From Pseudochelatococcus lubricantis (GTDB taxonomy: Bacteria > Pseudomonadota > Alphaproteobacteria > Rhizobiales > Beijerinckiaceae), in NCBI RefSeq assembly GCF_011762225.1, contig NZ_JAASQI010000001.1, forward strand, positions 124,001-188,000: DNA of 64,000 nucleotides. The letters are read 5' to 3'. Shown piece after piece: positions 22,714 to 25,518 of the stretch. Under the pieces are notes generated by a model. It saw only the letters and a program-made list of their open reading frames with translations, was not told the DNA's origin and made no database searches. The position numbers were made by a program, and so were the translations under genes. Within the stretch, counting starts at the first letter, position 1, and each line of letters begins with the position of its first letter.

Positions 22714-24003
22714 TCAGAAGTCGCGCTGCAGACGGATGCGCGTCTGGACCTGGTCCTCGTTGCGCTTCACGTAGTAGGGCTGGTTGAAGTCGACGACGCG
22801 GAAGCGGTCGCGCTCCAGACGGCCGTAGAGGACCTCGACACCGATGTCGAACTTGGACACCGGCGACCAGATCAGAGCCGTACCGGCCTGCCACATGTTG
22901 AAGTCGCGGAACAGCGCGTTGCTGAACTTGACCGCAGAGTTGTAGGACACGTCCGTGTACGAACCCCAGAGGGTCGAACGGACGCTCGGGGTCCAGTAGT
23001 GGACGCCGGCAGCGGTGATGTTGAAGCCCGAAGAGGTCTTGATGTCGCCGTTGATGACGTAGCCATCGATCACGGTGTTCGAGACCTTGCCGGCAGTGGT
23101 GCTGCCGTTCAGGCCGAGGTAGCTGAGAGCGCCGTCCGCGTAAGCGGCCTGCAGCCACAGCACGTCACCCGCGCCGAGCTGCGGGAGCTTGAACTTCACG
23201 CCACCCTGAATGGCCCAGCCATAGGTGGTGTCGACGCGCGTGCCCCAGCTGCCGCCCCACGGATTGTAGATCGTGCCGGAGTTGAGCTGATGCAGGGCGC
23301 CCGACAGCTGAGCGGAGCCCCAGTCCTGATCGACGCGCAGGTTGGCGATGACGTCGGGCAGACGCTGGCCAGCGCGGTCGTAGTAGCTCGAGTTCAGCTC
23401 GCGGTTGCCGCGGTCTTCGAGCGAGATGGTGGCCGAGAAGCCCGAACCGAACGTGGCGGTGTAGGCCAGCAGGTTGGTCGAGGTATCCGAACCAGGCGCG
23501 CCGCCGAAGCTGCCCCAGTTCAGGTCAGACGCGTAGAAGTCGAAGAACGACTGGGCCTGACCGGCGGTGATGCCAGCCCACTGGATGTAGGCCTTGTCGA
23601 GCAGCGCACCGTTGCTGGTGCCCTGGTTGCCGGTGTTCTTGTCGATCTGGAAGCGCATGTAGGCGCGCAGCGTGCCCCACTCGGTCGGCGTACGGACGTC
23701 GACGTTCAGACGGGCGCGGGCCTTGATGCCGGTGGCATCCTTGTAACGACCATTGCCAGCCTGGTTCGGGGAGGCGTTGGTGTTGCGCGGCTCGATGTAG
23801 ACGTAGTCAGCACGGACACGGCCGGAGAGCTGGATGCAGCTATCCGTGCCGGGGACGTACCAGAAGCCAGCGCCGTACGTGGAGCAGACGCGGACGTATT
23901 CGACGGGAGCAGCCTTCGTGACGGGAAGATCTGCAGCCTGAGCTCCGGCAACCGCGGCGATGCCGGCGGCGGTTCCGAGGAGAAGGCTCTTCACGAGCTT
24001 CAT
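22714..24003 (-). CDS. outer-membrane porin, Porin_2 (alphaproteobacterial) family
   Basis: A 429-residue beta-barrel porin. A Sec signal peptide (about 1-23, ending AGAQA) is followed by the family opening ADLPVTKAAPVEYVRVC, the paired cysteines in CSTYGAGFWYVPGTDSC and the strand ISGR/LSGRVRADYVYIEP. The protein ends in Phe, the outer-membrane insertion signal read by BamA. Homologues in Brucella (Omp2) and rhizobia form trimeric general porins. A GGAGG ribosome-binding site precedes the ATG. The upstream region is unusually AT-rich, and a strong terminator follows, so it is a single-gene unit. Confidence 0.95.
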   Translation of the reverse strand: MKLVKSLLLGTAAGIAAVAGAQAADLPVTKAAPVEYVRVCSTYGAGFWYVPGTDSCIQLSGRVRADYVYIEPRNTNASPNQAGNGRYKDATGIKARARLNVDVRTPTEWGTLRAYMRFQIDKNTGNQGTSNGALLDKAYIQWAGITAGQAQSFFDFYASDLNWGSFGGAPGSDTSTNLLAYTATFGSGFSATISLEDRGNRELNSSYYDRAGQRLPDVIANLRVDQDWGSAQLSGALHQLNSGTIYNPWGGSWGTRVDTTYGWAIQGGVKFKLPQLGAGDVLWLQAAYADGALSYLGLNGSTTAGKVSNTVIDGYVINGDIKTSSGFNITAAGVHYWTPSVRSTLWGSYTDVSYNSAVKFSNALFRDFNMWQAGTALIWSPVSKFDIGVEVLYGRLERDRFRVVDFNQPYYVKRNEDQVQTRIRLQRDF

Positions 24004-24604
24004 TGTGTGACCTCCAGAGAGATATCGAGACCCTTACGAGAGCAGGCCGTCCCCTATAAGCCGCCTTCCAAGAGACCGGCAGATGAAGCGCCTTTGTTCT
24101 TCCGAAAACCAGTCTTGCCCCACAATGCCCCGCCGATAGACAGGTAATCTGCGACTCATCCGATTGTCCGGTTGCCCTCGACGCGACAACCATGACCGAC
24201 CGACACCGTTCATTCAATAATTATGGAACGATTATGATGCGTTTTGAACCTTGTGTTGCGAAAACGCCACGCGAATATGAGAGGGAAACTTGATATAGAT
24301 ACAAGTCAAAATTTGGAATTTTTGGAAAAATTTTTCCTTTTCCGTAATAAACATGATGAAATATTCTCTCGAACCGCGTTAAAATTCATTAAATTTTTGT
24401 TAAAAAAACGCAGAGCGCCAATAGAAATCAAGTCAATAAGCTTTTCGGCGCCGGATATTTCTTCTTGTGGTTCAATATGGCGTGACTGCGTGGAATTATG
24501 TTAATGTCAGATATCACGCATGCCCGTACAGTTCGTGCCGAACCGATGACTGGGCTGTTTCCGCCCGCGCGGTGCCCGTGCCGCCGCAACCTTCACCCAT
24601 CAAA
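24004..24604. other. AT-rich intergenic region upstream of the porin gene
   Basis: About 600 bases with no credible gene. The stretch 24190-24500 is strikingly AT-rich against the GC-rich surroundings. It includes a perfect palindrome GGAAAAATTTTTCC (24324-24337), several A and T tracts, and CATAAT-like -10 candidates on the reverse strand near 24213-24235 that could serve the porin. An 86-codon open frame on the forward strand (24244-24504) has no recognisable features and was not called. Confidence 0.55.
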
Positions 24605-24690
24605 AGAAAAAAGCAGCATGCCCCTGCGGACGTGCTGCCAGATAACACTGATTCGACACTCGATAGCATACGGTCGAATCAAGGCGATAA
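24605..24690 (-). ncRNA. candidate small RNA ending in an intrinsic terminator
   Basis: On the reverse strand two hairpins follow each other. The first pairs TGATTCGA with TCGAATCA (24681-24674 with 24656-24649, perfect 8 bp). The second pairs GCAGCA with TGCTGC (24638-24633 with 24618-24613) and runs into six T residues and TTTT (24612-24601). The gene upstream on this strand (cold-shock protein) stops at 24871, about 190 bases away, and the porin starts about 600 bases downstream. It is either an independent sRNA or the 3' end of the cold-shock message. No clear promoter was identified, so the 5' end is a guess. Confidence 0.4.
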
Positions 24691-24870
24691 ATCGACAATC
24701 CGCCAAACAGGCCGTTTATTGGCCGGAACGGGGAGCAGCAACACCACCATAGCGCCGGGCGCCGCACGACACGACCCCGGTTTTTGCAACGAACGGACAT
24801 GAGCCCGTCCCCGTCTGCGGGACACCCGAAGCGGTTGTCCCACCGGACATCAAGCCCATGAGGCCCGATA

Positions 24871-25518
24871 TCAATCGAGAGCGATGTTTGACGCCTCGCG
24901 GCCCTTGGCGCCGGCAACGACACCCATCTGCACGCGCTGGCCTTCCGCGAGATCGGTGAGACCCGCGCGCTGCAACGTCGAAGCGTGAACGAAAACGTCC
25001 CTGCCGCCGTCGTCGGGCTGAACGAAGCCGAAGCCCTTGTCGCGGTTATACCACTTCACCGTTCCGTTGATGTCCTCGGCCGGCCCTTCGATACGCGGCG
25101 GATAGCCGCCACCGAAACCGCCGGCACGCGGCGGACGCGCGGGACGCGACTGGGGCGGAAGGTCTTCGAGTTCGAGAACCTCGGCCACCTGAGGCCCCTT
25201 CGGACCGTCGCGCAGGCGAACGATTGCGCGCGCCCCCGCCTCGGCCCCGGAATGCCCGGCGGCTTCCAGCGTCCGCAGCGACAGGAACGCATCGCCCGAG
25301 CCGTCCGACGCGGCCACAAAGCCGAAGCCCTTGCTCGGATTGAACCACTTCACGGTTGCTTCGATGGCGGGCCCCGTCGGGCCGCCGATCGACTGGGGAT
25401 AATAGCCGTTGTCACTGTCGTCACGGCTGGAATGGCCATACCCGCCATCGCGCGGCTCGAAACCGTCTCTACGGGCGCCCCGCCGGCGCGCGTCACGGGA
25501 ATCGTCATATCGGTTCAT
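24871..25518 (-). CDS. cold-shock protein with two cold-shock domains
   Basis: A 215-residue RNA/DNA-binding protein. A basic, Arg/Asp/Gly-rich head (1-50) is followed by CSD1 (about 51-118, KWFNPSKGFGFV), a Pro/Arg linker, and CSD2 (about 148-215, KWYNRDKGFGFVQPDDGGRDVFVHAS). CSD2 carries intact RNP1 (KGFGFV) and RNP2 (VFVHAS); in CSD1 the RNP2 position reads AFLSLR, so it is less canonical. Double-CSD proteins are typical of alphaproteobacteria (CspC/CspD-like in Caulobacter). They melt RNA structure in the cold or in stationary phase. The roughly 180-base upstream region includes a hairpin (AACCAT/ATGGTT, 25575-25590) that may be in the leader. Confidence 0.92.
   Translation of the reverse strand: MNRYDDSRDARRRGARRDGFEPRDGGYGHSSRDDSDNGYYPQSIGGPTGPAIEATVKWFNPSKGFGFVAASDGSGDAFLSLRTLEAAGHSGAEAGARAIVRLRDGPKGPQVAEVLELEDLPPQSRPARPPRAGGFGGGYPPRIEGPAEDINGTVKWYNRDKGFGFVQPDDGGRDVFVHASTLQRAGLTDLAEGQRVQMGVVAGAKGREASNIALD

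Follow-up and report, generated by a model that had tools for sequence, protein, structure and literature searches.

A structured 3′ untranslated region and intrinsic terminator at the probable end of a cold-shock mRNA in Pseudochelatococcus lubricantis

Two hairpins followed by a T-run lie on the minus strand between a cold-shock gene (csp) and a porin gene in a 64,000-nt stretch of the Pseudochelatococcus lubricantis genome, the whole of which was analysed and is called the window below. These elements very probably form the 3′ end of the csp mRNA, i.e. a structured 3′ untranslated region (3′ UTR) closed by an intrinsic terminator, a reading to which we give a probability of roughly 85%. It builds on the anatomy of the elements, on their position and on the fact that csp is followed by a terminator in relatives as well, all of which were observed directly. 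Since the site is most likely the ordinary end of the csp message and not a separate regulatory RNA, it is mostly unremarkable. A preliminary description of this DNA had proposed a candidate small RNA (sRNA) here, either one that controls the porin or one derived from the csp 3′ UTR.

Locus and anatomy of the feature

On the minus strand, a pyruvate carboxylase gene is followed by csp, the hairpin feature and a Porin_2 gene (Table 1). The porin gene comes after csp in each of the three genus members, i.e. the window and its two congeners (two other genomes placed in the same genus, with loci L008 (= L006) and L009 (= L007)). The csp orthologues of these congeners show 90 and 91% identity; a second search, which scored the best segment alone, gave 87 and 86%. 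Pyruvate carboxylase is also found upstream of csp in the Chelatococcus loci L010-L013 and L088-L094, with no match at the Chelatococcus loci L014 and L095.

Table 1. Positions of the features discussed (numbering of the window)
Feature	Position	Strand	Basis
csp, two-domain cold-shock protein, 215 aa	24871-25518	-	Pfam CSD, two stretches
Predicted csp 3′ UTR, chain of hairpins	24605-24870	-	Folding
Perfect 9-bp stem, 15-nt loop (arms 24649-24657 and 24673-24681)	24649-24681	-	Stem search
Terminator stem (7 and 4 pairs on either side of one mismatch; loop of 4 nt)	24639-24612	-	Fold and scans
T-run (T6 C T4), predicted RNA 3′ end	24602-24612	-	Sequence
Porin_2 gene	22714-24003	-	Domain search
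Porin's own terminator, 54 nt beyond the porin stop	22684-22659	-	Terminator scans

The last hairpin and the T-run have the marks of an intrinsic terminator: the hairpin is G+C-rich and stable (−18.1 kcal/mol, z −3.85, with none of 200 shuffles equally stable), the T-run stands right behind the stem and a gene of the same strand lies upstream. A strong terminator with a long T run had indeed been announced in the preliminary description, which also gave the distances correctly; the feature stands about 180 bases past the csp stop and about 600 ahead of the porin start. Its 6-bp hairpin is present at the place described, but the stem is better described as seven pairs, a mismatch and four pairs. 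This stem was detected by two scans and missed by a simple scan permitting no mismatch. In a scan of the same strand, the feature is the first intrinsic terminator past the csp stop, at +257/258. Farther along the minus strand, at 24419-24407, another hairpin with a T-run was observed; it is weak and precedes the porin leader.

Ahead of the terminator, the perfect hairpin that had been reported as 8 bp long was recovered on the reverse strand and in the right place, with a stem of 9 bp. Such a 9-bp stem is only mildly unusual: when the intergenic region was shuffled, 34 of 500 versions contained one. An 8-bp stem is present in 58 of 300 shuffles, and 8-bp stems occur at 49 distinct places in the 64-kb window. 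Overall, the 101-nt stretch folds modestly better than its shuffles (z −1.97; 6/200). A mobile or repeated element was rejected, as the 126-bp stretch has a single place in the whole genome, and positions 24640-24873 gave five further genomic matches, all weak (E 0.08-0.94). Each arm of the 9-bp stem carries a GANTC site (window 24650 and 24676), a methylation site of the CcrM type; GANTC was observed 107 times in the window, where base composition would predict about 197.

The terminator after csp in related loci

The DNA after csp was compared in 110 loci (80 of the 174 contig-search matches and 30 from whole genomes), or 102 after dropping eight same-genome duplicates. To count as a terminator, a hairpin had to reach at least −14 kcal/mol, carry a T-rich tail and lie within 300 nt of the csp stop. 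Among the matches listed, 59 of the 102 loci have a terminator by this rule, with a median position of +64, and 43 have none. As controls, 2/102 stretches qualified after one shuffling round, and 27/102 antisense stretches did so, a count that is not low and that may come from bidirectional terminators or convergent gene ends, two kinds that it does not separate. The terminator in the window resembles the csp terminators of these 59/102 loci listed in its G+C-rich stem, short loop and T-run past the stop. It differs from them in its distance of about 258 nt from the stop, farther than the other 58, and in its one stem mismatch.

Within Pseudochelatococcus and Chelatococcus, a terminator follows csp in all 11 loci among the matches listed, at +67 to +257. 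The three genus members have the farthest terminators of the 59 (among the matches listed), at +257 in the window, +226 in L008 and +221 in L009; in L009, a stronger hairpin starts at +238 and the terminator stem has −25.1 kcal/mol. The distances are +145 to +150 in the C. asaccharovorans group and +67 to +92 in other Chelatococcus, and the terminator stems vary among the species groups of the 11 loci. Five Chelatococcus loci (L010-L014) extend about 4 kb past csp, and in all five the terminator is present without a porin match in that span. Therefore, the terminator belongs with csp and not with the porin, and an origin in the csp 3′ UTR, which the preliminary description had offered as its second option, is supported as far as the place is concerned. 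Porin matches were seen only in the genus of the window, with most whole-genome loci covering just about 1.5 kb past csp.

Large perfect hairpins were also observed directly past the stop of two of the three other csp genes in the same genome, with stems of 21 bp (L135, from 1702) and 16 bp (L137, from 1717). No comparably long perfect stem stands directly past the stop of L139, and the terminator rule finds none after L137 or L139.

Based on the sequence, we infer that polymerase coming from csp would go on to transcribe about 260 nt of 3′ UTR, in which one hairpin follows another. Transcription would then stop at the last hairpin, the predicted intrinsic terminator with its T-run, which would keep csp transcription from entering the downstream porin gene. 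The hairpin ahead of the terminator most likely contributes to protecting the 3′ end from exonuclease, which would perhaps slow decay, and Hfq may bind the U-rich tail; such roles have been proposed for the two 3′ stem-loops of E. coli cspA and for those of Rhizobiales csp mRNAs.

Folding of the csp 3′ UTR

In the genus, the csp 3′ UTR measures about 220-260 nt, making these the longest three of the 59 among the matches listed. With the terminator included, the fold is more stable than that of shuffled sequence in every one of these members (z −3.09 in the window, −3.63 and −2.66 in the other two). With the terminator removed, the window gives z −1.7 to −2.3, which is unremarkable because 12 of 142 equal-length stretches sampled from the window reach −2.0. 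The corresponding values are −3.4 for L008 and −2.7 for L009, and the baseline from sampled stretches applies to the window alone and not to these congeners. A consensus fold of the three members has two-sided changes in 26 of 44 pairs; it was used neither way, because the underlying alignment (56% identity, large gaps) is distrusted.

A five-helix consensus fold was observed in about 165 nt past the csp stop of L088-L091, four species of the Chelatococcus group. Compensatory changes occur in 10 of its 44 pairs, a number reached by none of 500 shuffles, and without the terminator these four 3′ UTRs give z −0.98, −3.23, −1.45 and −5.07. A model of this fold (R1), the four species being the group to which C. 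asaccharovorans belongs, gave no significant match in the 3′ UTR of the window or of the congeners, and a structure shared with that group was therefore rejected. With filters off, the best overlaps are in L006 (E 0.36, 25 nt), L007 (E 1.9) and Chelatococcus L092 (E 0.17). Over 60 family genomes, R1 found strong matches (E 1e-45 and 1e-42) only in two genomes of its own group; 28 of the 60 have something at E ≤1, down to 6e-4, and many of these matches cover the terminator part alone.

Conservation of the candidate sequence

When searched against 199 family genomes, the 126-nt candidate matches only itself at full length and has no match in either congener. Three further matches of 30-35 nt were found in other genera (E 0.002-0.004), and the terminator stem accounts for two of these. 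As a positive control, a 121-nt stretch before the porin (24160-24280) was put through the same search and gave a match in each congener (E 2e-20 and 4e-26; 80-83% identity). The preliminary description had looked to conservation of its hairpins in relatives, which is not what was found for the 9-bp one: in L008, eight letters of the 5′ arm (TTGATTCG) are found in the same place with the partner arm absent, L009 has neither arm at the aligned position of the three-member alignment, and the stem is thus formed there in neither.

The conserved non-coding part of the region is 24004-24280 on the minus strand, upstream of the porin. It is probably the porin promoter together with a long 5′ leader. 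A GCGTTTT...AAAACGC inverted repeat was also observed upstream of the porin, where CCATAATTATTGAATGA is identical in all three genus members.

Alternative explanations

The alternative that survives best, although we consider it improbable, is a 3′-UTR-derived sRNA. Here, the csp mRNA would be cut by RNase E or a similar enzyme, and a fragment of about 85-150 nt comprising both hairpins and the U-tail would act in trans via Hfq. Such sRNAs usually end in a hairpin with a U-rich tail, and this module is present here, at the end of a 3′ UTR that is long for csp and, as described above, folds better than shuffles in the window and both congeners. However, the fold of the window is ordinary once the terminator is taken away, and no conserved seed is seen because the candidate is unmatched in, and aligns poorly with, the congeners. 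Pairing with the porin start, the sole target examined, was rejected: over 60 bases on each side of that start and with accessibility ignored, the duplex reaches −43.8 kcal/mol against a shuffled mean of −48.3, and 426 of 500 shuffles are as good.

The length of the 3′ UTR leaves room for something extra, which counts against an ordinary message end. It is also improbable that the csp 3′ UTR of the genus, unusually long and rich in hairpins, has been extended into a regulatory module, either as a processed sRNA or through a terminator that melts in the cold, giving read-through into the porin gene. In the latter version, the cold-shock protein itself would be the agent that melts the terminator, with the porin gene being syntenic.

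The other proposal of the preliminary description, an independent sRNA gene that has a promoter of its own and controls the porin, is now very unlikely. Such a gene would suit the long intergenic region on the same strand, about 600 bases ahead of the porin, and the preserved order of csp and porin. Nevertheless, the candidate lacks a match in the congeners, whereas the block before the porin is well conserved in both by the same search, and the terminator recurs in the five Chelatococcus loci without a porin match. An Rfam scan of the window returned only two tRNAs; near the feature, three sub-threshold matches were obtained (E 1.3-4.1, 11-21 bits versus cut-offs of 45-100). No promoter-like site of 8 of 12 or better was found within the csp 3′ UTR using the E. 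coli consensus, by which divergent promoters are missed, and the one site in a scan of 24400-24990 is located beyond the terminator. This absence is weak evidence, since promoter-like sites occur at 1.3 per kb on the minus strand and only about 0.35 would be expected by chance in the 3′ UTR. An independent sRNA is thus unsupported by Rfam, by the congener search and alignment and by the promoter scan, in addition to the porin pairing being at chance level. A last possibility, that a transcription factor binds the 9-bp inverted repeat as an operator in the DNA and that the repeat is not an RNA element, can practically be dismissed. The perfect repeat, its 15-bp spacer and the GANTC in both arms speak for an operator; against it, the repeat occurs once in the window, within a 126-bp stretch of one genomic place, has no promoter-like site nearby and is not retained in the congeners.

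Relation to known systems

The end of the csp message, as preferred here, has described counterparts. A survey of Rhizobiales sRNAs (PMC3927594) describes 3′ UTRs in which a stem-loop precedes a second, terminator-like one. Of these, 29 of 33 are on cold-shock genes, and the survey draws on E. coli cspA to suggest that they have a Hfq-dependent role in decay. The SmelB053-related csp 3′ UTRs of that survey share with our feature the cold-shock gene and the stem-loop plus terminator-like stem-loop, but the group is marked there (PMC3927594) by the loop motif GGAUGUA/GAUGUA before the terminator stem, a motif that is absent here. GATGTA is absent within 330 nt past csp in the window, in 109 of the 110 loci listed (this one included) and after three csp paralogues of the same genome. 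Therefore, in spite of the same outline anatomy and the attachment to a cold-shock gene, the feature was not filed with the SmelB053-like group. The E. coli cspA message, as cited in PMC3927594, likewise ends in two stem-loops, a likeness by description and not by sequence.

In Agrobacterium, a 66-nt 3′ UTR was mapped for the cspA transcript according to PMC3738593, which is near the median of +64 of the loci listed here. GspR, a Sinorhizobium sRNA described as repressing cspA5 by acting on its 5′ UTR (PMC5928217), is also a multi-stem-loop RNA linked to an alphaproteobacterial cold-shock gene. However, GspR is described as being encoded elsewhere, at a locus whose own upstream region is active (PMC5928217), whereas the feature here sits in the csp 3′ UTR.

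Significance

The csp locus serves mainly as a correction: where a hairpin with a T-run separates two genes of the same strand, the message of the first gene usually ends there, and the comparison with related loci favours this here. Should processing or read-through be demonstrated for the long csp 3′ UTR of this genus, another cold-shock mRNA would be known whose 3′ end has regulatory work to do.
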